Source: Halalkaliarchaeum desulfuricum (GTDB taxonomy: Archaea > Halobacteriota > Halobacteria > Halobacteriales > Haloferacaceae). From it: a stretch of 64,000 nt of DNA. The position numbers were made by a program, and so were the translations under genes. A model generated the notes under the pieces. It saw nothing but the letters and a program-made list of their open reading frames with translations. It had not been told where the DNA came from and made no database searches. Positions 23,828-56,070 of this stretch are shown here, one piece after another. The stretch is from assembly GCF_002952775.1 (NCBI RefSeq), contig NZ_CP025066.1, positions 1,178,001 through 1,242,000 on the forward strand, written 5' to 3'. Every line of letters begins with the position of its first letter. The stretch's first letter is position 1.

Positions 23828-24922
23828 ATGTGCCGGGGCACGGAGACCGACCTCGTCGACGAACTGCTCGAGGGGAACCATCGGGCGCTCGCACGGGTCA
23901 TCTCGAAGATCGAAAACAGGCGACCGGGGTACAGACAGCTCGTCTCCCGACTTCACTCACACACCGGGAACGCGTCGATCGTCGGTGTCACCGGCTCGCC
24001 GGGGGCGGGGAAGTCGACGCTGGTCGACAAGCTGGCGAAGCGCTACCGCGACCGCGGGGAGACCGTCGGCGTGATCGCGGTCGACCCCTCCTCGCCGTAC
24101 ACCGGCGGTGCGGTTCTGGGCGATCGGATCCGGATGGCCTCGAACGTCGGCGACATGGACGTGTTCTTCCGGTCGATGAGCGCCAGGGGGCAGCTCGGCG
24201 GGCTCTCGACGGCGACCGCCGACGCGGTGACGGCACTCGACGCGTTCGGGAAGGACCGAATCGTGATCGAGACGGTCGGCGCCGGGCAAAACGAGGTCGA
24301 CATCGTCGAAACCGCCGACACCGTCGCCGTCCTCGTCCAGCCCGGGTCGGGTGACGACGTACAGATGCTCAAGGCGGGGATCCTGGAAATCGGCGACGTG
24401 TTCGTCGTCAACAAGGCCGACATGGAGGGGGCAGACAGGACCGTCGCCGAGCTGGAGGAGATGCTCCACATGCGCGAGAGCCCCACCGCCGGACTGAACA
24501 CCGGCCACCACGGGTTCCAGGCGGTCGAAACGCCCGGCGAGGACGAGACGAGGGTCGGAGGCGAGTCGGTTGACGGGTCCGAGCCGACGGACGGGGACGA
24601 ACCGGAGTGGAGCCCGTCCGTGATCGAAACGGTCGCGACGACGGGTGAAGGGATCGAGCAGCTGCTCGAGCAGCTCGATTCCCACTACGCGCACCTCGAG
24701 GCGTCCGGCGAACTCGAAGCAAAGACCAGAAACAGGTACGCGAAGGGGATCAGGACGCTGCTGCGCAACGACATCGCGGCGCTCGTCGAACGGGAACTGG
24801 ATCGCCGTGGGGGGATCGACCAGCTCGCAGACCGGGTGGCCCGGCGGGAGACCGATCCGTACGCGGTGGCCGAACGGATCGTCGAACCGATCGCCGACTG
24901 TCTCGACGACAACCGTGAGTGA
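23828..24922 (+). CDS. meaB: MeaB/ArgK-family GTPase, chaperone of methylmalonyl-CoA mutase
   Basis: A 364-residue G3E P-loop GTPase that protects and reloads the mutase with adenosylcobalamin. Motifs are Walker A GSPGAGKST near residue 57, AVDPSSPYTGGAVLGDRIRM, ETVGAGQNEVD, and the guanine-specificity motif NKAD near residue 195. An acidic insertion near residue 240 is a halophilic addition. The C-terminal helices (TRNRYAKGIRTLLRND) form the dimer arm. It overlaps the next gene by 8 nt. Confidence 0.95.
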   Translation: MCRGTETDLVDELLEGNHRALARVISKIENRRPGYRQLVSRLHSHTGNASIVGVTGSPGAGKSTLVDKLAKRYRDRGETVGVIAVDPSSPYTGGAVLGDRIRMASNVGDMDVFFRSMSARGQLGGLSTATADAVTALDAFGKDRIVIETVGAGQNEVDIVETADTVAVLVQPGSGDDVQMLKAGILEIGDVFVVNKADMEGADRTVAELEEMLHMRESPTAGLNTGHHGFQAVETPGEDETRVGGESVDGSEPTDGDEPEWSPSVIETVATTGEGIEQLLEQLDSHYAHLEASGELEAKTRNRYAKGIRTLLRNDIAALVERELDRRGGIDQLADRVARRETDPYAVAERIVEPIADCLDDNRE

Positions 24923-25640
24923 TCAGTCCATCCCGGGTGCGTTTTACACCCGGTGGGCCGGCGTCTACGATCGGATCGCAAGCGACCTCCCCGGTGTGGC
25001 ACGGATGCGATCGGCGTTTCTCGATCTCCTCTCGCCGTCCCGCGGAGACGTCGTCGTCGAGATGGGATGTGGAACCGGCGCGAACTTCCCGTGGCTCCGA
25101 GATCGGGTGGGTCCGGAAGGAACCGTCGTCGGCGTCGATCTCTCAGAGGGAGTTCTCGAGCGGGCACGCGCCCGGGTTCGCCGAAACCGCTGGGAGAACG
25201 TCCACGTCGTTCGGGGCGACGCGACACGTCCGCCGTTCGTGGGGGGGCCGACGGCGGTTCCGTCCGGATCGCTGGGGCTCGGGGCCGGCGAAGTCGACGT
25301 CGTGCTCGCGACGTTCGTCGTGGGAATGCTCCCGGATCCGGGAGGCGCAGTCCAAGCGTGGGGACAACTTGCCGGCGACGGCGGCCGACTCGGACTGTGC
25401 AACCTGGCCCGGAGCACCACCCCGCTTGGACGCGTTTGTAATCCCGCGTTCGCCGCGCTGGTGCGTGCGAGTTCGCCGCCGGGCGGGAAGGGACGAACCC
25501 GGGGCGCCGCACAGTTGCTCGACGAGCGCGTACTGGAGGGCCACCGGGCGCTACACGACGTCTGTGACGGTGTGGTGAGCCGACGAGCGTTCGAGGGGTT
25601 CGTTCGCATGTCGGCCGGAACCGTTCGAACCGAGCGTTGA
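24915..25640 (+). CDS. Class I SAM-dependent methyltransferase
   Basis: A 241-residue methyltransferase of UbiE/Methyltransf_11 type. It begins FYTRWAGVYDRIA, then has motif I VVEMGCGTGANFPWL near residue 50, VGVDLSEGVLERAR, VVRGDATRPPF, VVLATFVVGMLPDPGGAV and GGRLGLCNL. The GTG at 24915 overlaps the meaB stop (GTGAGTGA), which indicates translational coupling. The substrate is unknown; the operon position with the B12 genes may be incidental. Confidence 0.87.
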   Translation: MSDQSIPGAFYTRWAGVYDRIASDLPGVARMRSAFLDLLSPSRGDVVVEMGCGTGANFPWLRDRVGPEGTVVGVDLSEGVLERARARVRRNRWENVHVVRGDATRPPFVGGPTAVPSGSLGLGAGEVDVVLATFVVGMLPDPGGAVQAWGQLAGDGGRLGLCNLARSTTPLGRVCNPAFAALVRASSPPGGKGRTRGAAQLLDERVLEGHRALHDVCDGVVSRRAFEGFVRMSAGTVRTER

Positions 25641-25657: not shown

Positions 25658-27400
25658 TCAAAAGAGTGCAAGCGTCTGTGCGATCACTCCGCCGATGAGG
25701 AAGGAGACCCCCATCGTCAACACGAGCACGACCCCGGCGATCCGGATGTCGAACTCCTCGGCGACGGTGGCGAACACCGCGATGCAGGGCACGTAAAACA
25801 GTCCGACGACCGCGCCGACGAACAGCTGTCCAGTCGAGAGGTCCATCTCGAGCAGCGGCAACACCGTCAGTTCGCGCCTGACGATCCCCAGCATAAGGGG
25901 GGTTGCTGCCTCCTCCGGCAGCAGCAGCCAGCCGACCACGAGTGGACGGAGATGCTCGCCGATTAGCTCCAGAATACCCAACTCGTACAGCAGCGACGCC
26001 ACCCCGATCGCGTAGATCATGTGGACTGCGCCGCCGAACAGGTAGTGTTTCAGCCGCATCCAGACCTTGTTCGCCGTGATGTGAGCCTTCGGGATCAAAA
26101 GCGGCGGAACGTCGGCGACCGTCGGATTCCGATCCCCTTCGAGAACTCGATCGAGCACGACCCCGGCCACCGCGAGCGCGAGAAACGACACAAAGAACAC
26201 GGCAATCACGAGGAGAATCGTCGCCTCGGCGAGCAATGCGATGAACGCCCCGGTCTGGGCCACGCAGGGCACAGCGAGACAGATCATGAGCGTGATCGAG
26301 AGCCGCTGTTTGTACGTCTCGGCCGCCCGGGAGCCGGTGATCCCCGGGATCGCACAGCCGTAGCCCAAAAGAAGCGGGACCACGTTGCTCCCGGTCAACC
26401 CGATCCGGGCGAACAGTCCGTCGAGCAGCACCGCGAGCCGGGGGAGGTAGCCGCTGTCTTCCAGCAGGCTCAACGCAATATAAAACGAGATCACGTACGG
26501 CATCACGAGCGCGAACGGCCACTCGATTCCCTTTATCAGGAAGCCGTACTCGCCGATCAGGACTGCCCTGACGAGCCCAGGATCTGTTACCGATCGCACC
26601 GCCCCTTCGATCACGGGGAACACGAACCCCTCGAAAACGGGGATGAGGAGATACTGTCGCAGTCCCATTCCGAGCCCGACAACAATCGCGAACGTCCCGA
26701 CCAGGACCAGAACCGCAACGGGTAAGCCGGGCCACGGTTCGACGAGCCGGTCCCCCCACAGCTGTAACGTCCCCGCTGGAGTGGACCCGCCGGACGATTC
26801 GTCGACGATCGCAATCTCCACGAGTTCCTCGGCCCGATCCCAGGTCGCCTCGTCCCCGCCGGGAACGGTCGGATTTCGAAGCGTGCCGGCGACGGCGTCG
26901 ACGAGTTGCTCGAACCCTTTCCCGATAGTCGCGACTGTGGGGATCACGGGAACCGACAGCTCTCGAGCGAGAACCTCCGCCCGGAGCCGTCTCCCCTCTT
27001 CCAGCAGGTCGACACGGTTGATCGCGACGACTGTCGGCACGTCGTGTTCGAGCACCTGCAACAGCAGATGCAGGCTGCTCTCGAGGTTTGCCGCATCGAG
27101 CACGCAGACGACGACGTCACAGCCACCATCCAGGATGTCGACCGCCAGCTGTTCGGCCTCGTTCGTCGCCGAAAGCGAGTACGTGCCCGGGACGTCGATG
27201 AGGGTCGCCTCCTCGCCTCTGAACGTGGCCGTCCCCCGCTTGTACTCGACAGTCGTGCCGGGATAGTTCGCGATCCCGGCGTCGAGCCCGGTCAACGCGT
27301 TGAAAAGAACACTCTTTCCGACGTTGGGTGGGCCGAGAAGCGCGACGCGGGTGTCTTCGGAGTCAGCGTCCACCTCGGCCGTCTCCTCACGGCGAGACAT
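25658..27400 (-). CDS. feoB: Ferrous iron transporter FeoB
   Basis: A 580-residue Fe(II) membrane transporter. The N-terminal G domain shows G1 GPPNVGKS at residues 23-30, G2/G3 with ANYPGTTV and DVPGTYSL, and G4 NRVD. The rest holds about ten hydrophobic segments with the Gate motifs, including GYGCAIPGITGSRA and CLAVPCVAQTGAF. It overlaps the upstream FeoA-fusion gene by 14 nt, a coupled iron-uptake operon. Compared with bacterial FeoB (about 770 residues) it is short, as is usual in archaea. Confidence 0.95.
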   Translation of the reverse strand: MSRREETAEVDADSEDTRVALLGPPNVGKSVLFNALTGLDAGIANYPGTTVEYKRGTATFRGEEATLIDVPGTYSLSATNEAEQLAVDILDGGCDVVVCVLDAANLESSLHLLLQVLEHDVPTVVAINRVDLLEEGRRLRAEVLARELSVPVIPTVATIGKGFEQLVDAVAGTLRNPTVPGGDEATWDRAEELVEIAIVDESSGGSTPAGTLQLWGDRLVEPWPGLPVAVLVLVGTFAIVVGLGMGLRQYLLIPVFEGFVFPVIEGAVRSVTDPGLVRAVLIGEYGFLIKGIEWPFALVMPYVISFYIALSLLEDSGYLPRLAVLLDGLFARIGLTGSNVVPLLLGYGCAIPGITGSRAAETYKQRLSITLMICLAVPCVAQTGAFIALLAEATILLVIAVFFVSFLALAVAGVVLDRVLEGDRNPTVADVPPLLIPKAHITANKVWMRLKHYLFGGAVHMIYAIGVASLLYELGILELIGEHLRPLVVGWLLLPEEAATPLMLGIVRRELTVLPLLEMDLSTGQLFVGAVVGLFYVPCIAVFATVAEEFDIRIAGVVLVLTMGVSFLIGGVIAQTLALF

Positions 27401-28418
27401 CGAGGTTCGGCTGTGAATCCTCGGCCGGATCCTCCCGCGTTACCCGGATGTGATCTGCGAGCGACCGGTCGATCGCGACTCGACGTCCCTCGGCCTCCAC
27501 GATCAACGGTCCGCCGAACAGCTGGCGTCCACGAACGCGAACCGAGTTCCCGGGACGGACGCCCAGCGGAGACAGCAGGTCGTGATCCGGAACGCCGCTG
27601 ACGACGGCGCGTTCCCCCTGCTCCAGCGATTCCAGGGTGGGCCCTTCCGGTCCCGTCGGGATGGCGGCCGATCCGCCGGCCGATCCTCCATGAGCAACGG
27701 TTCCGCCGTCGGCAGTCGCTGCCGGAGGCGCCTCCGTATCCGCGATCGGTTGCGACGCCGGACAGTCCGTCGCGTCCGAGCAGCCGGCACAGTCGGTCGG
27801 GTCGTTGCAGACGACCACACTTTCCTTGCCGAATCGCTGGGCGATCGTCTCGGAGGAGACATCGCCCGACGGCACGTCGATGTTCGGAAACAGGGGGCTG
27901 GCCCAGCCCCGCGGTCGGCGGTAGACGAGCGTCTGTCCCGCACGGAGCTGAGACATCGTCTCGACGACGACCTCTCGCTTCGGGTGGACGTGAAACGCCA
28001 TCCAAATCACGTCGAAAGAGGCGGTATCGAGCGTCTGCCCGTCGCTCACCGCGAAGTCGATCCGACCGGTGAGGTCCCGACTCTCGACAGCCCTGCGGGC
28101 GGCGTCGACTGCGTCGGGATCGTTGTCGATTGCGACGACATCGTAGCCGCGCTCGGCCAGCGCCATCGCGGTCATCGGCAGGGGCCCACAGCCGACCTGC
28201 AGCACCGACGCGTCGTCGTCGGGGGCGACGAGACCCAGTTCCCGCTCGATGACGTGCTCGTAGAATAGCCGACGGTAGAGGTTCCCGAACGCAGATGACA
28301 CCCGATCCAGCCGTTCGAGACGTTTCAACACGCCCGCGCTCGCGGCTACCGCTCGGGATCCCTTCACGCCCTCGTACTCCGATCCGTCCCGTCTCAGGTA
28401 TCCATCAGTGTTCGTCAC
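27387..28418 (-). CDS. Nicotianamine-synthase-like SAM enzyme fused to FeoA
   Basis: A 343-residue two-domain protein. Residues about 45-180 are a class I SAM-binding fold with VLQVGCGPLPMTAMAL at 72-87, VVAIDNDPDAVDAARRA at 94-110 and IWMAFHVHPKREVV at 138-151. GxGPLPxT is characteristic of nicotianamine synthases rather than of ordinary methyltransferases. Cysteines at 204, 210, 213 and 219 form a possible metal site. Residues about 261-327 are an FeoA SH3-like domain. The start is GTG at 28418, 20 nt after a DtxR-type palindrome. The gene overlaps feoB by 14 nt. Whether the enzyme makes a metal chelator or senses metal is unknown. Confidence 0.82.
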   Translation of the reverse strand: MTNTDGYLRRDGSEYEGVKGSRAVAASAGVLKRLERLDRVSSAFGNLYRRLFYEHVIERELGLVAPDDDASVLQVGCGPLPMTAMALAERGYDVVAIDNDPDAVDAARRAVESRDLTGRIDFAVSDGQTLDTASFDVIWMAFHVHPKREVVVETMSQLRAGQTLVYRRPRGWASPLFPNIDVPSGDVSSETIAQRFGKESVVVCNDPTDCAGCSDATDCPASQPIADTEAPPAATADGGTVAHGGSAGGSAAIPTGPEGPTLESLEQGERAVVSGVPDHDLLSPLGVRPGNSVRVRGRQLFGGPLIVEAEGRRVAIDRSLADHIRVTREDPAEDSQPNLDVSP

Positions 28419-28437
28419 GGGTCTACTCGTTCCTATC

Positions 28438-28460
28438 TTTAGGCCCCCCTAAATTAAATA
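28438..28460 (-). promoter_or_regulatory. DtxR-type palindrome overlapping the promoter of the FeoA-fusion/feoB operon
   Basis: A perfect 16-bp inverted repeat TTTAGG-N4-CCTAAA (28438-28453, spacer CCCC) carries the half-site of metal repressors of the DtxR family, whose known consensus is TTAGG/CCTAA. A TATA-like TATTTAATT on the minus strand adjoins it, and the GTG start is 20 nt further on. Binding here would cover the transcription start. This fits iron-dependent repression of the operon. Confidence 0.7.
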
Positions 28461-28560
28461 CGGGAGCGGGTTCCCACTCCGTGAAAAACCGGCAACTGAT
28501 TCGATCTCACTCCCGGAAACGGTCGATACCGCCCGCGGGACGCGAGGTTCAAGCCCACCA

Positions 28561-28610
28561 TCGCGACCATGTATCCGGCCCCACGTCGCAACCATGTATC
28601 CGGCCCCACG
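28561..28610. repeat. 25-bp direct repeat between the two nicotianamine-synthase-like genes
   Basis: Two adjacent 25-bp copies (28561-28585 and 28586-28610) differ at a single base. They lie 15 nt after the end of the second nicotianamine-synthase-like gene (minus strand). The 28419-28625 gap holds no other clear gene. Confidence 0.85.
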
Positions 28611-28625
28611 GCGCGATCGGTCGCC

Positions 28626-29267
28626 TCAGTCCGTCCGGAACAGGAGCGACCGACCGAACGTCACCATCCAATGAGAAACGGAACCGTCCGGAACCGCCGG
28701 AATGACCCTCGACGACGTAGTCGAACCGGCCGAACTTCCGCCGTCGTGGGCGCTGTCCTGCGCCGCCTGCGCCGTGGTGACCGGATCGTAATCAGCCGAG
28801 AACACCGACCGAGGCTGACGGACGACAACTCGACTCGGGCCGCCCTGCGCCCGTCGGTATCGCTCGACGATTTCGTCTTTCGGTTCCGCCTGCAGGGCAA
28901 CGACGGCGACCGAACAGGGCTCCGGAAGGTGGGTTCCGTCGCCGATGACCTCCCGGCCGTCCCCGACGACGACTTCGACGTCGTCGGCCACGCCGGCACG
29001 CGCGAGGTTTCGACGCGCCTCTCGAACCACGCTCGGGTCGTTATCTAGCGCGTACACGGTCGCGCCGGAGCGTTTCGCGAGTAATGCGGCCGTAAACGGC
29101 ATCGCACCACAGCCCACGTTGAGTACCCGGTCGTTTGCGTCGATCCCTGCGAGTTCGATCTCTCTATCGACGACCGACCGGTAGATCCGAGTGTAGACCT
29201 CGAACAGCCACGGAGCGTCCGTGAAGACCTTTTCAAGCGCCGCGACGGTTTCCCCGAACCGACCCAT
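28626..29267 (-). CDS. Second nicotianamine-synthase-like SAM enzyme
   Basis: A 213-residue paralogue of the N-terminal domain of the FeoA-fusion protein. It has LNVGCGAMPFTAALLAKRSG near residue 49, VYALDNDPSVVREARRNLAR and VVVGDGREVIGDG, with VVRQPRSVF near 147-155 aligning to the fusion's YRRPRGW. It lacks an FeoA domain and the cysteine cluster, and has a Ser/Ala-rich tail. It lies upstream of the fusion gene on the same strand, separated by 207 nt and the palindrome. A half-site TTAGG lies 8 nt before its start. Function is inferred by similarity and position. Confidence 0.75.
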   Translation of the reverse strand: MGRFGETVAALEKVFTDAPWLFEVYTRIYRSVVDREIELAGIDANDRVLNVGCGAMPFTAALLAKRSGATVYALDNDPSVVREARRNLARAGVADDVEVVVGDGREVIGDGTHLPEPCSVAVVALQAEPKDEIVERYRRAQGGPSRVVVRQPRSVFSADYDPVTTAQAAQDSAHDGGSSAGSTTSSRVIPAVPDGSVSHWMVTFGRSLLFRTD

Positions 29268-46272: not shown

Positions 46273-46809
46273 ACCATCCGTTTCTCGGTCGAGGGAATAA
46301 GCTTTGGGCGTCGTCAGACGGGCGCACGACCCGCGGAAATCACGGAGACGACGGTGGTGACAGAGAATCACCGTTCCCGATCCGATCCGACGGAGGACAA
46401 TTAATATATAAAAGGTTATATAATCACCAGGATATCGGGACGGAAGCGCCGGGAAGCGGCCGTTATCGAACCTCCTACGGCCGGGAAGCGGTCCGGATAC
46501 GGATCGGAGACAAACCCCCTCGCTTCTACTGTGGTTTCCGATCACGTCACGCGTTTTTCGGAGACCAAGATCCACTTTCACTCCGCTCTAGGTACCGTTA
46601 TATGCAACGCTCCGTTGTATTGGTGGTGTGTACGCGACGCCGTGACTGTCGCGGGGGAGAACTGATCAGAACCTGGAGAGGTACCGACCCATCGGGCCCG
46701 GGAAACGCAAACATGAAGGGGCCCACTCGCCGAGAGAACAATCCATGGATACCGGGAACTCACGCGGATTTCGAGAGACGCCTTGCACGCATCGTGGAGT
46801 GATGACGCA
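46273..46809 (+). promoter_or_regulatory. 537-nt intergenic region upstream of the ribonucleotide reductase
   Basis: No credible gene. It holds an AT-rich cluster at about 46395-46430 (TTAATATATAAAAGGTTATATAA), probably a divergent promoter pair, a second TATA-like GTTATATGC near 46598, and a small hairpin near 46635-46655 (CGCGAC/GTCGCG). No cobalamin-riboswitch consensus was recognised. The long stretch between the AT-rich element and the nrdJ ATG would be a leader of over 300 nt if that promoter is used. Confidence 0.4.
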
Positions 46810-49800
46810 ATGAGTGACGCCGAACACAGTATCGAAGATACCGATCTACCGATCAAACGCACCGAGGGAGAGACGTTGAGAGAGCGGCTCACCGACAACG
46901 CCTACGAGAACATCCTGCCGGCCAGGTACCTCCGGAAGGACGCTGACGGAGAACTGATAGAAACCCAGGAGGACCTGTTCGTCCGGATCGCGCGCAACAT
47001 CGCGCTCGCCGAGGCCGTCTTCGAGGCTGAAAAACGCGACGTCGAGATCACGGTGACGCCCGAGCAGCTCAAGCCCGACCATCCCCGGCGCGAGGAACTC
47101 GCCGAGGAAGTGTTCGGGAAGGGCGTGACCCCCGAGGACGACGCCGAAACCACGCTCTCCGTCTACAACGTCAACAAGTTCGCCTACGAGACGATCGTTC
47201 CGGAGCTCCCCGCGGAGATCTCCGCGGTAGTGGAGGAGAAGTCAGAAGAGTTCCGGAGATTGATGGAGAGTCTTTCTTTCATTCCGAACTGCGTTCCTTC
47301 GAATTCGCTCGTCGCCGCTGGAGGTGGGATGAAACCGCTCGGGGACATACAGCCCGGAGAACGAGTGTACGACGACGTGGATGGAAATGCCAGCGTCGAA
47401 GAGAAATATCGGAACGGACGGAAAGCCGTCCTCGAGATAGAGACGGACGCAGGGTATACCGTACGGGCAACGCCGGAGCATTACTTCCGGATAATCGACG
47501 AGAACGGCGAGTACGCGTGGCGGCAAGTAAAAGAACTCGACACCGGAGACACGATCGCGCTCCAGCGGGACTTCCTGGACGACGATGGAGTACGCCACGC
47601 TCTCGGAACCGATACACAGCTCACGGACGGCGGGACGGCCGCCGTACCCTCTCGGGGGCGCGATCGGCTCTCTATCGACCCGCCCGAAGAGATTACTCCC
47701 GAGTTCGCCGAATGGCTGGGACTGTATGTCGGAGACGGAACCGCCCGCGAAAGCGGCGTCAGGATGGCCTTCGACGACGCCGACGAGGACCTCGTCGATT
47801 ACTGGGTCTCATTAACCGAGAGCGTCTTCGGGTTCGAACCAACAGTCGGTCACCACGGGGATGCGGCGTGTATTATCGGACGTGCGAGCCGACGCGACCT
47901 GTACGACTTCCTGAACGCGAACGACCTGTTAAAAGAAAGCTCCAAAACTGCGGCGATTCCGGAGGCCGTCCTCCAGTCAGGCCGAACGATCGCAGCACGG
48001 TTCCTGCGCGGACTGTTCGAGGCCGACGGGACCGTGGGAGACAGATCGATCGAGCTGTACACACACAGCGAAGCACTCGCGTCACAGGTACAAAAGCTCC
48101 TGTTGGGGCTCGGAATACGCTCGGCAATTCGCGACAAACGCGACGGGTACCGGGTGAGAGTTCGAAAGAACCGGTGTGGGAAACACTTCGTCGAGCGCGT
48201 GGGATTCATAAGCGACCGAAAAACCCGGCGTTCAGAACGGTTCGAAACGGTCGCTGACAGCGCCACGTCGCTGGAGATACCGAACCAGAGCGAACGTCTC
48301 CTCGAGTGGTACCGCGAGAGCGATCTCGGCCACGACGCGTACCGTGATCTCTCGCAGTTCCTGATCGATCCCGACTCCGAGTACCACCAGGTGATCGGCG
48401 AGGAGCTGTTCGAAACGTACGCCGAGAAATATCCCGAGCTGTGGGACTCCCCGGTCGCAGAACACGTCGAACGCGACCAATTCTACGAGACGGTTTCTGA
48501 GATCACGGAACTGGGAACGATGGCGGTCGAGGACATGCAGGTCCCCCGCCGAAACACGTACGTCGTGGAAGGGTTCGTGAGCCACAACAGTCCGACAATA
48601 ATGAACGCGGGTGACGAGCTCCAGCAGCTGTCCGCCTGCTTTGTCGACTCCCCGGACGACGACATCACGGACATCCACCAGACGATGAAGGAGGCCGCGG
48701 AGGTCTTTCAGTGTCTCACCGACGAAACCACCGTCTTCGTCGACGGCAAGGGGGTCGTCTCGATCGCTGACGTCGAACCCGGCGACGAGATCCGGGGACG
48801 AGACGGGGAGGGACACCGGACTCGCCGGGTCGAGGAAACCCACGCGTACGACGACGCACCCGTCTTCCGGGTCGTCACGGAAGCCGGAATCGAGCTCACG
48901 GGCACGCCGAACCACGAACTCTGCGTCGGTGGCGACTGGACTCGGATCGACGAGATCGACCCCGGGGACGCGCTCGCGGTTCGTCTGGACTGGATTCCCG
49001 ATGTCGACGAGGAGGTCGAACTCGAGACCGTCGAGAACCGTAATCCCACAAACGAGACGGGCCGCGTACTCGACGAAGGGACCGTCGCCGAAATCGGTGT
49101 CGCCTCGGAATCGGACACTCTCCAACGTAGTCGACAGACTCTCGAACCGAACGGCCGTCCGGTGAAAACCGTCACGCAACCGTCGACGCTCACCACCGAG
49201 CTCGCCGAACTGGTGGGGATGTGGGTCGGGGACGGCTCACTCCACGAGGACGGTATCCGATTCCACCTTCGTCGCGAGGAAACCCTCGAACACGCCGACC
49301 GGCTATGCCGGGAATTATTCGACGAGGGACTCGACTGGCAGTGGGCCGACGGCTGCTACGACGCGGTGTTGCACAGCCACGAGATCAAGCGGTTCTGGCT
49401 GGAGAACTTCGGCGACGCGAAGCCCGATTCGACGACTGCATCCGTGCCCGAACCCGTCCGACACGCGGGTCACGACGTCATAACGGGGTTCCTCCGAGGG
49501 CTGTACTCCACAGACGGCAGCCTGCAGAAGGGAGCGTATCCCCGGCTGTGGAGCGCATCCGCGGAACTGATCGACGACGTCCAGCAGCTTCTCGTCGGCC
49601 TCGGAATCCCGGCAGCATCGTGGGAGTCCGACTCCCCAGAGCGCGACTACTACAACGTCGGTCCGACCGGGGAGGCCGGCCTCGAACGATTCGTCGATCT
49701 CGTGGGATTCGTCGACGGACGAACGGAGGAGATGCGGTCGAAACTGGCCGAGATCGACCACGCGGGGACGACGTTCGGGACGATCGACGGCTCGACGTGG

Positions 49801-52800
49801 GAAGTTCCGGTCGAGCGCGTCGAGGCGGCCGGCACCGACACCGTCTACGACGTGACCGTCGAGACGGAGCCCGAGTACGTCGCGAGCTCGGTTGTCTCTC
49901 ACAACAGTGGCGGCGGAATGGGGTATGCCTTCTGGAAACTTCGCCCGTACGGCGACGCGGTGGGCTCGACCGGCGGGATCGCCTCCGGACCTATCACGTT
50001 CATGCGAACGTATGACCAGATGTGCTTCGTCCCCGGTACCAAAATCCTCACCCCGGGCGGGACGACGCCGATCGAGGAACTGGAGGAAGGACAGCTGGTG
50101 ATCGACGAACACGGGGACGCCCAGCCGGTCACCGAAACGATGGAACGGTTCGTCGACGAGGAAATCGTCGAAATCACGCCGAAACGAATCAACAAGCCGA
50201 TCCGCGTGACCGAGGAACACCCATTTAAAGTCGCCCGTGATAGCGGCTTCGAGTGGGTCGATGCTGGCGATCTGGACGAAGACGACCGTCTCGTCTTCGG
50301 ACACTGGAACGAGGAAAACGACCTCGCTATCGAGGGGACTGTAGATCTCACCCAAGTAGCGTCCGGTCCCCTCGTCTTCTCCGACGGGGGCGTCGTGATC
50401 AACCGGGATCATTACGGCGTCTCGAAGGGAACGAAGCCGAAAGCGTTCGAATCCGAGGTCCCGACGAAGGACCTCGCGACGATCGCCGGCTGGTACCTCG
50501 CGGAAGGCAGCATTCGCTACCAGCGGGGGATCCCCTCGACGGTGACGTTTACGTTGAACAACGACGAGCGTGCGGCAGCCGAAGAGATCCAGGAGGCGCT
50601 CCGATCCTTCGGCGTCGATTCGCGGATCCGTGAAGTCGAGGACCGGAACACGCTTCACGTTCACGCAGAGCACACCAGTTTCGCAGGTTTCATCGAAGGA
50701 ACGTTCGGAACCGGCGCCTCGGAGAAGTCGGTCCCCCGTTTCCTCTGGAACGCCCCTACCCCCGTTCAGGCACGTGTGCTGGAGACGCTGTTCGAGGGCG
50801 ACGGACGGCTTGAAAAGCGAGGAAAAAGTCAGCGCGTCCAGCTCAAGCTGGCAAACGAGGAAATTGTCGACTTCGTCTTCCAGGTCGGAGTGCGCTGTGG
50901 GGTCCAGTTCTCACGCCACGATCGAACCCCGGAGGATCGGCAGCCGACGTACTCGGTCAGTGCGAGCGTGAGTACCGCACTCGGGACTCCACTCGAACGT
51001 CTCTTCGAGGAGGTCCCCGACGGGTTCTCCGCGCGCGACCGGACCAAGCAGGCGAACGGTCGGGAAGTCGTCGCGGTCGACGCGATCGAACGAACGGAGT
51101 ACAGTGGACCGGTCTACAACGCCGAAGTCGCGGGCACCCACACGTACGTCGCCGAGGATGTCGTCGTGCACAACTGCGAGACTATCGCACAGGGTGGGGC
51201 CCGCCGGGGCGCGCAGATGGGGGTGATGCGCGTCTCCCACCCGGACGTCATCCAGTTCATCCACGCGAAGAACAAGGACGTCTCGCTTGCCCACTCGCTG
51301 CGACTCAACGACCCCGACGACTACACCCACAACTCCTTTGCGGAGGCGCTCGAGGAGGCACGGGAACTCATCGACGACGAGGGCCGGGTCCCCAAACATC
51401 TCCGGAATGCCGTCGAGGGGCATCTCTCGAACTTCAACATCTCGGTGGGCGTCACCGACGACTTCATGGAGGCGCTGGCAAACGACGAGGAGTTCACGTT
51501 CACCAACCCGCGGACCGAAGAGCCCCACGTCACGACCCCGGAGACGAAGGAGCTGTACGACATGTTCGGCCTCGGCGAGTACGTCGAGGTTGGCGAGGTG
51601 CTGTCGGTACCGGCGGCCGAACTCTGGCAGGACATCGTCGAAGGCGCCCACGAGAACGGCGAACCAGGAGTAATCTACCTCGAGCGAGTGAACAAGCAAC
51701 ATTCATTCGACGTAGAGGAGCACCCCGACCACCGGATACTCTCGACCAACCCCTGCGTCACCGGCGACACGCTCATCAGCACCGAGAGCGGGCTGATTCC
51801 CGCCGAGGAACTGTACGAGCAGGGCGTCGCACGCGATGTCGTCGTCGACGGCCGACTCAGCGACGACCGGGTCAAGGAGGCAAGCAGCGTCTTCCGAACC
51901 GGTGAGAAGGAGGTTTACAAACTCACGACCGAGGAAGGATACGAACTCCGCCTGACGGCCGACCACCGCGTCATGACCGACGACGGCTGGGTCGAGGCTG
52001 GAGACCTTGACGCCGGCGACACAGTCCACATCCAGAACCGGAAAGGCGAGTTCGGTCGCCACGGCTCCGGCGCCGAAGGCCGCGTGCTCGGCTGGCTCGT
52101 CGGCGACGGGCACTTAAAAGACGGCGAGGAGCGGGCGATCCTGAACTTCTACGACGAGGACGCGGAGATTTCCGAAGATCTGGCAGCCGACGTCGACGAG
52201 GTGGTGCGCGATCCGGTTGGCAACGCCGACTACGAGGTCGGCGTCAGCGAGATCGGTCGAAGCGACGAGTACCGTGGGGCACAGGCCGTAGAGCAGCGGA
52301 TCCGCTCGGTACGGCTGTACGAGATGGCGGCGGAACTCGGCCTGACCGAGCAGAAGTTCCAGGTGCCCGATGCGGTGATGCAGGGTAGCGAGGAGATGGC
52401 CCGGGGGTTCCTGCAGGCGCTGTTCACCGCCGACGGCAGCGTGCAGGGAAGTAAAAAGAACGGGCGGAGCATCCGACTGGCAAGTTCTCACCGCGAATTA
52501 CTCAAAGAGGTCCAACAGCTCCTGCTCAATTTCGGTATAGCGAGCCGGATATACGAAAACCGCCGTCCAGAGCAAATTCGAGAGCTGCCGGATGGAAACG
52601 GCGGTACAAAGGAGTATGAGACGAGAGCCCAACACGAACTGGCAATCACGAAGGACAATCAACAGCGATTTGCCAGGGAACTCGGATTCCTTCGCGAAGA
52701 CAAAAACGATCAGCTCGAGAAGAATCTCGACGCCTACACGCGGGGACCACAGACAGAGACATTCGTGGCGACGGTCGAAGAAGTGACCCCGGATGGATAC

Positions 52801-55800
52801 GAAGAAGTGTTCGATCTGACTGAGCCGGAAACCCACTCATTCGTCGCTAGCGGCCTCGTAACCCATAATTGCGGGGAACAGCCGCTCGAAGAATACGAAG
52901 CCTGCAACCTCGGCCACATCAACCTCTCGACGCTTGCGGCCCTCGACGCCCCCGACTGGCGAGCCTGGAGCGCCGAGCACGGCGACGAGTACGACACCCA
53001 GGCCGAGGCCGTCGAGGCCTTCCTTGAGGAGGCGATCGATTTCGAGGAGTTCGACTACCGGATCGACCGCGGGACGCGGTTCCTCGAAAACGTCGTGACG
53101 ATGTCGGACTTCCCGGTGCCGGAGATAGAGGAGAAGGTCAGGGAGATGCGCAAGATCGGCCTCGGGATCATGGGTCTCGCGCAGCTGTACATCCAGCTTG
53201 GCGTCCGGTACGGCTCGGAGACGGGCAACGAGATCGCCCGCCAGCTGATGACCCACATCAACCACACCTCGAAGTGGACCTCCCACGAGCTGGCGACCGA
53301 TCGCGGCTCCTTCGACGACTGGGATGACTCGAAGTACGCGAACCCGACCGAGTACGCCGAGTGGTTCGAGCACCACACCGGCCTCGACGCGACCGAATGG
53401 GAAGAAGGGTTCCCGATCCGAAACCACAACACTACGACGATCGCGCCGACCGGCTGCGTCGACGAGAACTCGCTGATCTCCACCGACGAGGGGCTGCAAC
53501 CGATCAAAGAGCTCGACGAGACGACCGCGGAGTTCGAACAGTGGGACGATATCGAGGTCGGCGTCTCGACCGACGGCGGCACGAAGACCGCCACGGCGGT
53601 GTACGACAACGGGTTCGCCGACGTACGCCGGATCGAAACCGAGGGCGGCTTCAGCGTCGCAGCCACACCGAACCACCGGTTCCGGACGCTCACCGACGAC
53701 GGCGAGTACGTCTGGCGCGAGGCCGACGACTTCGAGTCCGGCGACACGATCCTCCTGCAGCGGGATACGTTCCAGGGCGAGATGCGGGCCTCTCTCGACA
53801 CGAGCGAGGAGAGGAACCGCCACTGGAACTCCGCGGAGGCACTGGAGCTCCCGTCGGAGATGACGCCCGAACTCGCGGAGTTCCTCGGGTACTTCATGGG
53901 CGACGGCTACGTCCACGACGACGTCGGCGTCAAGCTCGTCGTCGAATCCGATGCCGAGGAACTGGACGCACACCTGCGAGAACTCGGCGAGTCGCTGTTC
54001 GGCGTCGAACCCACCGTCGAAGATCGAGACACCAGACACATGCTCGTCTTCGGCGGCCGACACCTTCCCCGGTACTTCGAAGACAACGGCTGGAAGAAGG
54101 CCGACGGGAACGCCGGCGAGGGCGCCGCCAGCGCGTTCGTCCCCGAGGACGTTCTCGCCGGCGACGAAGCGGTCGCGAAGGCGTTCCTCCGCGGGCTCTT
54201 CGAGGCCGACGGAACCGCCTCCCGGAAGGTCGAGCTCTCGACCGTCTCCGAGACCCTGGCGAACCAGGTGCAGACCCTGCTCCTCTCGCTCGGTGTGGTG
54301 TTCGTCCGCGACGTCCTGGAGATGGAGTCCAGGGACGACCACTTCGGGGACCGTCCGCGTCACTGCATCCGGGGCGCAAACAAGCGCGAAGACAAGCGTT
54401 TCCTGGAGGAGATCGGGTTCGTCACGAAGGCGACGGAGATCGAACTCACGGCCCAATCGTACAAGAACGACACGTACCCGCCGGCGGTCGTCGAGGCGTT
54501 GCGTGACGTCGACGGATACGACGCGGTGGACAGTTCCGTGAAACACCGTGTCAACCAGTCGCCGAGAAACGGGTCGGTGTCCCGGAAGCTAGTGCGGGAC
54601 GTGGAAGCCGAAACCGGCGAGACGGTTCGCCTCGATGGGCGGCGCCTCACCGACTTCTACGCGGCGACCGTCGAGGAGGTCACCGAAGAGAAGGCGTACA
54701 CCAAAGACATCAGCGTGCCCTCGAACAACACCTACCTCGCGAACGGGTTCGTGACCCACAACACCACCTCAATGCTAGGAAATACGACAGGTGGCTGCGA
54801 GCCGATATATAACGTCGCGTACTACAAGAACGTCACCGACGACGTGCAGGGCGACGAGATGCTCGTGGAGTTCGACGACTACTTCCTGCGGACGCTGGAG
54901 GCGAACGGTATCGACGTCGAGGCGGTCAAACGCGAGGCGCAAGAGCAGATGGCCGCAAACGAGTTCGACGGCGTCGAGGGGCTGTCGACGGTCCCCGATG
55001 CCATCGGCGAACTGTTCGTCATCACCGAGGACCTCTCCGGAAAGCAACATGCCGCAGTGCAGTGCGCATGTCAGGAAGGTGTCGACTCTGCGATCTCCAA
55101 GACGTGCAACTTCCCGAACGACGCCACCGTCGAGGACATGGACGAGGTGTACCGGTACATCTACGACCACGGGGGGAAGGGCGTCACCGTCTACCGGGAC
55201 GGCACCCGATCGAAGCAGGTGTTGACCACGCGGGCGAAGAACACCGACTTCGCCGACGAGTCCGAGGCCGCAGAGGCGATCGTCGAGCAGATCCAGGAAG
55301 TGTTCGGCGGGGTCGAGTCGTTCCTCGAGAACGACGACGTCCGGGAAGCGCTCGATACCGAGATCGAGGCGTTGCTGGAGTCGGCCGACGGCGACGGTCC
55401 CAGCTACGCCGAGCGTCGTCCCCGCCCCGACTCGCTTACGGGCGTCACCCAGCGGATCGATACCGGCTACGGCAAGATGTACGTGACGATAAACGAGGAC
55501 GAGAACGGGGAGCCGTTCGAGCTGTTCGCCAACATCGGCCACTCGGGCGGTTTCACCAACTCCTTTACGGAGGCGCTCGCGAAGGTGATCTCGACGGCGT
55601 TGCGGTCGGGCGTCGATCCCCACGAGATCGTCGACGAGCTTCAGGGGACCCGTTCGCCGAAGGTCGCCTGGGACAAAGGAGAGCAGATCCAGTCGATCCC
55701 GGACGCGATCGGCACCGCGATGCGGCGGTATCTCGACGACGAGATCGAGAAAGGCTACCCCCAGCAACAGCGGCTCGAGGAGGCCGCCGGCGGGATGTCC

Positions 55801-56070
55801 GCGGCGGTGGGCGATGTCGACGCCGACGCGACCAGCGACGTCGACGACGACAGCGACGAGGAGACCGACGGCAGATCTTCACTCGCCGAAAACGGGACCG
55901 GCACCGGGGTCGGAAACGACGACGGAGACGGGAACGACGACGGGATCGACGCGACCCAGGCACTCATCGACGCCGGAGAGTCGCCCGAGTGTCCCGAATG
56001 CGGGTCGATGTCTCTGTACTACTCTGAGGGCTGTAAGACCTGCGAGTCCTGTGGCTGGTCGGAGTGTTGA
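46810..56070 (+). CDS. nrdJ: Adenosylcobalamin-dependent (class II) ribonucleotide reductase with five inteins
   Basis: A 3086-codon gene. Removing five inteins (433, 398, 384, 372 and 436 residues) leaves a 1063-residue class II reductase that makes deoxynucleotides using adenosylcobalamin. Exteins are residues 1-160, 161-201, 202-240, 241-433, 434-628 and 629-1063 of the mature protein. Extein motifs include SPTIMNAG, QLSACFV, SGGGMGYAFWKLRP, NPCGEQPLEEYEACNLG with the radical cysteine, and APTGTTSMLGNTTGG. The tail is an acidic linker and a zinc ribbon (CPEC and CKTCESCGW) typical of NrdJ. The ATG at 46810 is preferred over a TTG nine codons upstream. Every intein must splice to give a working enzyme. 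Confidence 0.95.
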   Translation: MSDAEHSIEDTDLPIKRTEGETLRERLTDNAYENILPARYLRKDADGELIETQEDLFVRIARNIALAEAVFEAEKRDVEITVTPEQLKPDHPRREELAEEVFGKGVTPEDDAETTLSVYNVNKFAYETIVPELPAEISAVVEEKSEEFRRLMESLSFIPNCVPSNSLVAAGGGMKPLGDIQPGERVYDDVDGNASVEEKYRNGRKAVLEIETDAGYTVRATPEHYFRIIDENGEYAWRQVKELDTGDTIALQRDFLDDDGVRHALGTDTQLTDGGTAAVPSRGRDRLSIDPPEEITPEFAEWLGLYVGDGTARESGVRMAFDDADEDLVDYWVSLTESVFGFEPTVGHHGDAACIIGRASRRDLYDFLNANDLLKESSKTAAIPEAVLQSGRTIAARFLRGLFEADGTVGDRSIELYTHSEALASQVQKLLLGLGIRSAIRDKRDGYRVRVRKNRCGKHFVERVGFISDRKTRRSERFETVADSATSLEIPNQSERLLEWYRESDLGHDAYRDLSQFLIDPDSEYHQVIGEELFETYAEKYPELWDSPVAEHVERDQFYETVSEITELGTMAVEDMQVPRRNTYVVEGFVSHNSPTIMNAGDELQQLSACFVDSPDDDITDIHQTMKEAAEVFQCLTDETTVFVDGKGVVSIADVEPGDEIRGRDGEGHRTRRVEETHAYDDAPVFRVVTEAGIELTGTPNHELCVGGDWTRIDEIDPGDALAVRLDWIPDVDEEVELETVENRNPTNETGRVLDEGTVAEIGVASESDTLQRSRQTLEPNGRPVKTVTQPSTLTTELAELVGMWVGDGSLHEDGIRFHLRREETLEHADRLCRELFDEGLDWQWADGCYDAVLHSHEIKRFWLENFGDAKPDSTTASVPEPVRHAGHDVITGFLRGLYSTDGSLQKGAYPRLWSASAELIDDVQQLLVGLGIPAASWESDSPERDYYNVGPTGEAGLERFVDLVGFVDGRTEEMRSKLAEIDHAGTTFGTIDGSTWEVPVERVEAAGTDTVYDVTVETEPEYVASSVVSHNSGGGMGYAFWKLRPYGDAVGSTGGIASGPITFMRTYDQMCFVPGTKILTPGGTTPIEELEEGQLVIDEHGDAQPVTETMERFVDEEIVEITPKRINKPIRVTEEHPFKVARDSGFEWVDAGDLDEDDRLVFGHWNEENDLAIEGTVDLTQVASGPLVFSDGGVVINRDHYGVSKGTKPKAFESEVPTKDLATIAGWYLAEGSIRYQRGIPSTVTFTLNNDERAAAEEIQEALRSFGVDSRIREVEDRNTLHVHAEHTSFAGFIEGTFGTGASEKSVPRFLWNAPTPVQARVLETLFEGDGRLEKRGKSQRVQLKLANEEIVDFVFQVGVRCGVQFSRHDRTPEDRQPTYSVSASVSTALGTPLERLFEEVPDGFSARDRTKQANGREVVAVDAIERTEYSGPVYNAEVAGTHTYVAEDVVVHNCETIAQGGARRGAQMGVMRVSHPDVIQFIHAKNKDVSLAHSLRLNDPDDYTHNSFAEALEEARELIDDEGRVPKHLRNAVEGHLSNFNISVGVTDDFMEALANDEEFTFTNPRTEEPHVTTPETKELYDMFGLGEYVEVGEVLSVPAAELWQDIVEGAHENGEPGVIYLERVNKQHSFDVEEHPDHRILSTNPCVTGDTLISTESGLIPAEELYEQGVARDVVVDGRLSDDRVKEASSVFRTGEKEVYKLTTEEGYELRLTADHRVMTDDGWVEAGDLDAGDTVHIQNRKGEFGRHGSGAEGRVLGWLVGDGHLKDGEERAILNFYDEDAEISEDLAADVDEVVRDPVGNADYEVGVSEIGRSDEYRGAQAVEQRIRSVRLYEMAAELGLTEQKFQVPDAVMQGSEEMARGFLQALFTADGSVQGSKKNGRSIRLASSHRELLKEVQQLLLNFGIASRIYENRRPEQIRELPDGNGGTKEYETRAQHELAITKDNQQRFARELGFLREDKNDQLEKNLDAYTRGPQTETFVATVEEVTPDGYEEVFDLTEPETHSFVASGLVTHNCGEQPLEEYEACNLGHINLSTLAALDAPDWRAWSAEHGDEYDTQAEAVEAFLEEAIDFEEFDYRIDRGTRFLENVVTMSDFPVPEIEEKVREMRKIGLGIMGLAQLYIQLGVRYGSETGNEIARQLMTHINHTSKWTSHELATDRGSFDDWDDSKYANPTEYAEWFEHHTGLDATEWEEGFPIRNHNTTTIAPTGCVDENSLISTDEGLQPIKELDETTAEFEQWDDIEVGVSTDGGTKTATAVYDNGFADVRRIETEGGFSVAATPNHRFRTLTDDGEYVWREADDFESGDTILLQRDTFQGEMRASLDTSEERNRHWNSAEALELPSEMTPELAEFLGYFMGDGYVHDDVGVKLVVESDAEELDAHLRELGESLFGVEPTVEDRDTRHMLVFGGRHLPRYFEDNGWKKADGNAGEGAASAFVPEDVLAGDEAVAKAFLRGLFEADGTASRKVELSTVSETLANQVQTLLLSLGVVFVRDVLEMESRDDHFGDRPRHCIRGANKREDKRFLEEIGFVTKATEIELTAQSYKNDTYPPAVVEALRDVDGYDAVDSSVKHRVNQSPRNGSVSRKLVRDVEAETGETVRLDGRRLTDFYAATVEEVTEEKAYTKDISVPSNNTYLANGFVTHNTTSMLGNTTGGCEPIYNVAYYKNVTDDVQGDEMLVEFDDYFLRTLEANGIDVEAVKREAQEQMAANEFDGVEGLSTVPDAIGELFVITEDLSGKQHAAVQCACQEGVDSAISKTCNFPNDATVEDMDEVYRYIYDHGGKGVTVYRDGTRSKQVLTTRAKNTDFADESEAAEAIVEQIQEVFGGVESFLENDDVREALDTEIEALLESADGDGPSYAERRPRPDSLTGVTQRIDTGYGKMYVTINEDENGEPFELFANIGHSGGFTNSFTEALAKVISTALRSGVDPHEIVDELQGTRSPKVAWDKGEQIQSIPDAIGTAMRRYLDDEIEKGYPQQQRLEEAAGGMSAAVGDVDADATSDVDDDSDEETDGRSSLAENGTGTGVGNDDGDGNDDGIDATQALIDAGESPECPECGSMSLYYSEGCKTCESCGWSEC
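47290..48588 (+). mobile_element. Intein 1 of nrdJ (433 aa, before SPTIMNAG)
   Basis: It begins with Cys and ends HN before Ser+1. Splicing blocks are CVPSNSLVAAGG (A), TPEHYF (B) and VEGFVSHN (F/G). The endonuclease core has two LAGLIDADG helices, LGLYVGDGT and RGLFEADGT, both keeping the catalytic Asp. It sits between the mature residues FIPN and SPTIMNAG. Confidence 0.95.
48712..49905 (+). mobile_element. Intein 2 of nrdJ (398 aa, before SGGGMGYAF)
   Basis: It begins CLTDETTVF, has block B TPNHEL, and ends VVSHN before Ser+1. The LAGLIDADG helices are VGMWVGDGS and RGLYSTDGS, with both acidic residues present. It interrupts the conserved SGGG turn only 41 residues after intein 1. Confidence 0.95.
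50023..51174 (+). mobile_element. Intein 3 of nrdJ (384 aa, before CETIAQGGARRGAQM)
   Basis: It begins CFVPGTKIL, has block B TEEHPF, and ends VVVHN before Cys+1. LAGLIDADG helices are IAGWYLAEGS (Glu in place of the usual Asp, allowed in the family) and ETLFEGDGR. It differs most in sequence from the other four. Confidence 0.95.
51754..52869 (+). mobile_element. Intein 4 of nrdJ (372 aa, before the radical cysteine of NPCGE)
   Basis: It begins CVTGDTLIS, has block B TADHRVM, and ends LVTHN before Cys+1, which is the thiyl-radical cysteine of the host. LAGLIDADG helices are LGWLVGDGH and QALFTADGS. From about 52490 to the end the base composition is visibly richer in A+T than the surrounding DNA. 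Confidence 0.95.
53455..54762 (+). mobile_element. Intein 5 of nrdJ (436 aa, before TTSMLGN)
   Basis: It begins CVDENSLIS, has block B ATPNHRF, and ends FVTHN before Thr+1. LAGLIDADG helices are LGYFMGDGY and RGLFEADGT with both Asp present. It splits the active-site loop APTG|TTS. Confidence 0.95.

Follow-up and report, generated by a model that had tools for sequence, protein, structure and literature searches.

Within a 64,000-nt stretch of the Halalkaliarchaeum desulfuricum genome (C1:1178001-1242000 of G000, a 3.31-Mb single-contig haloarchaeal genome; hereafter the window), three genes join the ferrous iron transport (Feo) proteins FeoA and FeoB to two proteins related to nicotianamine synthase (NAS), the enzyme that makes the metal chelator of plants. 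Because the same genes are found together in other archaea and in bacteria of soda lakes, they look like an unrecognised variant of the Feo system that might work by a new mechanism. Comparison between genomes gives good support for a tight linkage of FeoB and FeoA with the NAS-like pair and with a membrane protein of the LPG_TM family, which is MprF-type. Our preferred reading, to which we give a little less than an even chance, is that this is an iron-controlled variant of the Fe(II) Feo system in which sister NAS-superfamily proteins work at FeoB and make a metal ligand derived from S-adenosylmethionine (SAM).

The window genes lie on the minus strand and are transcribed in the order sNAS, NAS2-FeoA fusion, feoB. 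The first (28626-29267) encodes a 213-aa stand-alone NAS-superfamily protein, N-terminally truncated, which we call sNAS. The second (27387-28418, GTG start) encodes a 343-aa fusion whose gene stop overlaps the start of feoB (25658-27400, 580 aa) by 14 bases. Based on AlphaFold2 segments and a profile alignment to MtNAS, the NAS2 domain of the fusion covers approximately aa 22-208 (27795-28355); the FeoA domain, which forms a confident separate domain in the model, covers approximately aa 256-330 (27429-27653; PF04023, 4.8e-14). Both Pfam models exceed their cut-offs in this one protein (NAS, 39.5 bits against 27.1; FeoA, 52.6 bits against 23). The SAM-loop motif is GCGPLPMT in the fusion (aa 76-83) and GCGAMPFT in sNAS (aa 52-59), and the linker of the fusion begins with a four-cysteine stretch, CX5CX2CX5C (aa 204-219, with cysteines at 204, 210, 213 and 219; 27762-27809). 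These are the elements that a sequence-only reading of the window had picked out: two NAS-motif proteins, a FeoA fusion, its cysteine linker and feoB are all present.

The G-domain model FeoB_N (PF02421, 3.8e-45), the gate model (PF07670, 9.3e-27) and FeoA (PF04023) all match above cut-off, as expected of a Feo system. Against the NCBI feoB equivalog TIGR00437, the window FeoB scores 302.9 bits, below the cut-off of 315.65, and we therefore regard it as a divergent FeoB; several other FeoBs of this kind pass. Between sNAS and the fusion, where two other haloarchaea (G052 and G129) have an LPG_TM gene, the window carries two tandem 25-nt copies that are 84% alike (28553-28602).

To place the NAS-like proteins, we searched the PDB with profiles made from 18 sNAS and 16 NAS2 sequences. 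The top match was MtNAS for both (sNAS, 1.1e-18; NAS2, 2.1e-17) and the second was CntL (1e-14 and 5e-12), with the best other methyltransferase trailing at 2.8e-11 for sNAS and 1.4e-8 for NAS2. Foldseek likewise returned MtNAS at ranks 1-4 for both AlphaFold2 models, which were built from shallow input alignments of 16-18 rows (sNAS: predicted local distance difference test (pLDDT) 86, predicted template modelling score (pTM) 0.83; fusion: pLDDT 76, pTM 0.54). In the fusion model, the NAS2 and FeoA domains are confident and the linker at aa 209-255 is of low confidence and predicted to be disordered. When true NAS and ordinary methyltransferases are included in one tree, NAS, sNAS and NAS2 stand apart from the methyltransferases with support of 98. 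Inside this group sNAS joins NAS2 (82), NAS2 forms one group (88) and most sNAS another (91), with two divergent sNAS rows placed near NAS2; these supports are modest because only 186 columns are usable. Searching 393 genomes of the phylum with the sNAS profile brought up members of the gene set first, followed by mostly known NAS genes.

By itself, the window sNAS falls short of the Pfam NAS model, its best PDB chain in a single-sequence search is an RNA methyltransferase, and generic methyltransferase Pfam models also match. The profile search had been named beforehand, in the sequence-only reading, as a possible refutation; it placed both proteins with NAS and CntL. Together, the profiles, the predicted fold and the tree confirm that both NAS-like domains belong with NAS and CntL, as that reading had proposed from their motifs, and we rejected an identity as ordinary methyltransferases.

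At least 21 genomes from archaea, Bacillota, Spirochaetota and Desulfonatronospira pair one FeoB clade with sNAS and/or NAS2-FeoA, an arrangement we refer to as the cassette; for bacteria, this count is a minimum. Haloarchaeal cassettes are found in the window, in G052 (L039), in G129 (L040) and in Halobiforma nitratireducens (L084). Further cassettes occur in G182 (L074), G306 (L078), G239 (L075), G146 (L170), G329 (L076) and G288 (L171), and in a Methanomassiliicoccaceae metagenome-assembled genome (MAG; L086). On the Bacillota side are two Halanaerobiaceae (L085, L092), a Clostridia MAG (L095) and a Bacillota MAG (L091); four cassettes are from Spirochaetaceae (L087, L090, L093, and L094 with L173) and two from Desulfonatronospira (L088, L089). 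For L091, L093 and L094, the cassette genes are split over different contigs of the same genome. Soda-lake sediments yielded many of the bacterial genomes as MAGs, with the sample codes T1Sed, B1Sed and CSSed (PMC6146748).

The usual cassette consists of sNAS, LPG_TM, NAS2 (with or without a fused FeoA) and FeoB, and LPG_TM, which is MprF-type and flippase-like, is present in most. The earliest-branching FeoB lineages (G288, G146 and G329) have separate FeoA and FeoB genes together with sNAS, do not have NAS2, and carry LPG_TM in two of the three. NAS2 and FeoA are separate genes in L085, L092, L088 and L089. Two spirochaetes extend the fusion: L090 encodes an LPG_TM-NAS2-FeoA triple fusion and L093 an LPG_TM-NAS2 fusion. 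We did not find sNAS in Halobiforma or in either Desulfonatronospira genome, which are draft assemblies.

The set is not a widespread haloarchaeal trait, a question that the sequence-only reading had raised for the fusion: sNAS occurs in 4/292 haloarchaeal genomes, compared to 52/292 with FeoB-type matches, and the set instead reaches several bacterial phyla. The fusion gave no match in PLSDB that would indicate plasmid-borne spread. A chance neighborhood was rejected based on recurrence across phyla, the fusions, and the single FeoB and LPG_TM groups; the ranking of the profiles and of the Foldseek hits and the recurrence in distant phyla likewise make the locus more than a chance association.

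The cassette FeoBs, bacterial ones included, are 41-67% identical to the window FeoB, compared to approximately 28-35% for other full-length haloarchaeal FeoBs. They form one clade in a 46-row tree, with a support of 98.8 in the Shimodaira-Hasegawa-like approximate likelihood ratio test (SH-aLRT), and most cassette genomes yielded no FeoB besides that of the cassette. This recurrence with a single FeoB clade bears out the tie to FeoB that the window alone had suggested. We also asked whether cassette FeoBs are marked by the lack of the cytosolic helical domain (PF17910), and rejected this, as three non-cassette haloarchaeal FeoBs also have no match. In L074 and L078, a second, canonical feoA-feoB pair directly follows the cassette, and its FeoB falls outside the cassette clade.

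The cassette LPG_TM proteins are members of PF03706, a family of predicted lipid flippases of MprF type (PMC5898192). They form one group (94/96), which also includes the only LPG_TM found in G615, the Clostridia MAG whose cassette (L095) has no neighboring LPG_TM. This copy alone breaks strict monophyly, and an approximately unbiased (AU) test does not reject a single clade (p 0.315).

Directly before the fusion-feoB unit lies a perfect copy of the palindrome TTTAGGN4CCTAAA (TTTAGGGGGGCCTAAA in the minus-strand reading, 28438-28453), for which 0.02 occurrences per window are expected by chance when at most one mismatch is allowed. Five exact sites exist in the whole H. desulfuricum genome, against none for the reversed control. 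Ferric-iron ATP-binding cassette (ABC) genes lie behind the remaining four: a gene for a ferric-iron-binding protein (closest PDB relative 7w3w, 7.8e-56), its permease and an FbpC/PotA-type ABC ATPase. The palindrome also precedes cassette genes in the other haloarchaea, 15-37 bases from the start codon: before sNAS and the fusion in G052, before sNAS in G129 and before the fusion in Halobiforma. The G129 fusion is preceded by a degenerate copy, and G129 has just two further sites, both in front of a TOBE-type ABC ATPase gene. In G052 and G494, the genes behind the sites encode a ferric-iron-binding protein, FecCD-type and TOBE-type ABC transporters and DUF7551/DUF7552. The DUF7551/DUF7552 gene behind the palindrome (L281 in G052, with a look-alike in L284 of G494) is in its own right a candidate haloarchaeal iron-regulon member.

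In sequence, the half-site is similar to the operators of DtxR/IdeR. Members of the DtxR family serve as iron regulators in haloarchaea, namely Idr, SirR and TroR (PMC11349517). In the bacteria, NAS2 is immediately preceded by a Fur-family gene in both Desulfonatronospira loci (by Pfam in L089 and as a close homolog, judged by eye, in L088). Because the operator is common to the ferric-iron ABC genes, membership of the fusion-feoB unit in an iron regulon is well supported, as far as operator sequences can tell. The shared operator also supports an iron role for the cassette FeoB, in line with the iron function first proposed for the locus; manganese or another metal may be its substrate.

The CX5CX2CX5C linker is present in 4/4 haloarchaeal fusions, and its spacing is near that of the Escherichia coli FeoC motif, CX4CX2CX5C (PMC8749426), with the first gap one residue longer. 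The linker cysteines would plausibly be a FeoC-like metal or iron-sulfur site. No FeoC family, the fold of which is a winged helix, appears among the Pfam or NCBIfam matches. The likeness is confined to haloarchaea; as a general cassette feature the four-cysteine linker was rejected, since other lineages have different cysteine-rich stretches before FeoA or few cysteines. This spacing, the LPG_TM partner, the iron-regulon palindrome and the single FeoB clade all go beyond what had been noticed in the window initially.

The equivalents of MtNAS Tyr107, Gly130, Gly132, Pro135 and Arg221 are invariant across NAS, sNAS and NAS2, and the equivalent of Lys201 is found in all sNAS and three quarters of NAS2. 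The catalytic tyrosine (MtNAS Y107, AtNAS1 Y106) is thus kept, as Y29 in sNAS and Y53 in NAS2. In AtNAS1, Y106 and E77 are essential, and they correspond to residues proposed for MtNAS (PMC10248798). A further invariant glutamate, E12 in sNAS and E35 in NAS2, lies in the helix preceding the tyrosine helix, and the alignments disagree on whether it matches MtNAS E81; E36 and R150 of sNAS are also invariant.

The functional link appears strong in view of the operator shared with iron-uptake genes, the membership of the cassette FeoBs in one clade and the recurrent gene fusions. Under the preferred reading, sNAS and NAS2 would bind SAM and pass its 3-amino-3-carboxypropyl group, the chemistry of NAS and CntL, to an acceptor; the product would be a metal ligand of the aminocarboxylate type. 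FeoA would keep NAS2 at the cytosolic face of FeoB, where the ligand could pick up Fe2+ leaving the pore; alternatively, LPG_TM could carry the ligand, soluble or lipid-linked, across the membrane to collect Fe2+ for FeoB. A fuller version, which we find possible and rather on the unlikely side, is a membrane-coupled metallophore Feo system. Here sNAS and NAS2 would together build a soluble or lipid-anchored SAM-derived Fe(II) ligand, LPG_TM would move it, and FeoA would anchor its synthesis at FeoB; chelator production and channel gating would then form a single machine that has spread between archaea and bacteria.

A number of observations weigh against ligand synthesis at FeoB. Both proteins lack the N-terminal domain that in NAS binds the acceptor and carries the catalytic glutamate (MtNAS E81, AtNAS1 E77); the MtNAS columns just past E81 (A85, V88 and I89) are gaps in every sNAS and NAS2 row, leaving no aligned counterpart of the glutamate. 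For this reason we class sNAS and NAS2, on their alignments, as NAS-superfamily proteins and not as proven NAS enzymes. A description as nicotianamine synthases as such fails on this point, though the essential tyrosine is kept. The missing domain suggests a non-standard acceptor, for which a lipid offered by LPG_TM is one possibility, or a site completed jointly by sNAS and NAS2. LPG_TM is absent from the window operon, with a cassette-type copy elsewhere in the genome; sNAS-LPG_TM pairs without an adjoining feoB occur in G000, G052 and G494; and no palindrome precedes the window sNAS or any of these three stand-alone pairs.

The main rival holds that both have lost enzymatic activity, bind SAM or methylthioadenosine (MTA) and gate FeoB through FeoA according to SAM or sulfur status. 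Retention of the SAM-site motifs after loss of the catalytic glutamate and acceptor domain is what such a sensor would be expected to look like, as is the tethering of NAS2 to FeoA, a FeoB accessory domain. However, the catalytic tyrosine and the glutamate preceding it are invariant in 34/34 aligned sequences, which is unusual for a pure sensor. In addition, sNAS has no link to a FeoA domain in its own chain and forms pairs with LPG_TM at sites remote from feoB. We consider a SAM/MTA sensor unlikely.

Those stand-alone pairs are in keeping with modification of a lipid, in which sNAS and NAS2 would add an aminocarboxypropyl group to a membrane lipid that LPG_TM flips, comparable to MprF and lysyl-phosphatidylglycerol, and the altered surface would aid Fe(II) capture or the envelope under iron shortage. 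The membership of LPG_TM in the MprF flippase family (PMC5898192), the MprF-like flippase-then-transferase order in L090 and L093, and an open acceptor side suited to a large substrate agree with this, but lipid modification does not itself explain the FeoA fusion and the solved NAS relatives use amino-acid acceptors; we hold it to be distinctly improbable. Least probable of all are ordinary SAM-dependent methyltransferases, to which the generic Pfam and RNA methyltransferase matches would point, or a SAM-cyclizing enzyme, as other class I folds cyclize SAM without an acceptor (PMC11794875), either of them beside Feo by happenstance: NAS and CntL rank first by profile, fold and tree, the NAS-type Y107, P135, K201 and R221 are largely conserved, and the Feo association is repeated, fusions included.

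Several other genes deserve mention. The second sNAS of H. desulfuricum adjoins its LPG_TM gene at approximately C1:3225167-3226740, and a gene that looks by eye like a uroporphyrinogen-III C-methyltransferase adjoins this pair (L002, C1:3224725-3228219), with no iron palindrome there. In G357 (C13, L175), a full-length NAS-type gene adjoins an ABC ATPase with the look of an energy-coupling factor (ECF) metal transporter, offering a clue to what true NAS does in archaea. Within the window, an ordinary class I methyltransferase gene (24919-25640, plus strand), matched by generic methyltransferase models and not by NAS, runs towards feoB. A 3095-aa open frame (46783-56070, plus strand) encodes a ribonucleotide reductase (barrel domain, TSCPD) broken by several inteins with LAGLIDADG domains.

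To our knowledge, neither a chelator nor NAS-type chemistry has been linked to Feo before, and we know of no settled mode of action for FeoA. The sequence-only reading could not name the combination as a described one, and we found no description of NAS with FeoA or FeoB among the open-access papers searched. Nor do a survey of Feo evolution and one on opine zincophores mention such genes under the terms searched. If the preferred reading is correct, Fe(II) uptake by Feo gains a biosynthetic partner, and prokaryotic NAS-type proteins gain a role beyond MtNAS and the opine metallophores.

Compared to known systems, the cassette shares with Feo (FeoA, FeoB and FeoC) a FeoA domain and a FeoB with G domain and gates, and in haloarchaea the cysteine spacing of its linker is similar to that of FeoC, but its FeoA is fused to an NAS-like domain, its FeoB forms a separate clade, and no homology to FeoC was found. 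With the MprF/AglD flippases (PF03706, UPF0104) it shares its LPG_TM proteins and, in spirochaetes, the flippase-then-transferase fusion order; in contrast, the fused domain is NAS-like and not a tRNA-dependent aminoacyl transferase, and LPG_TM is linked to Feo, though not beside the window operon. CntL, the staphylopine synthase of opine metallophore systems, is the second-nearest solved relative and performs SAM aminobutanoyl transfer within a metal-uptake cluster. No opine dehydrogenase, exporter or importer stood out in the ORF (open reading frame) lists of nine loci, inspected by eye with few Pfam checks; CntL is, moreover, full length, and the cassette transporter is FeoB and not an ABC importer. 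The nearest solved structure is that of MtNAS (PDB 3FPE), which, like plant NAS, has the GxG(P/A)xPxT loop, the catalytic tyrosine, R221 and mostly the PK motif in common with the cassette proteins. Unlike these enzymes, sNAS and NAS2 are two sister paralogs that lack the N-terminal domain and are fused to, or encoded with, FeoA and FeoB.

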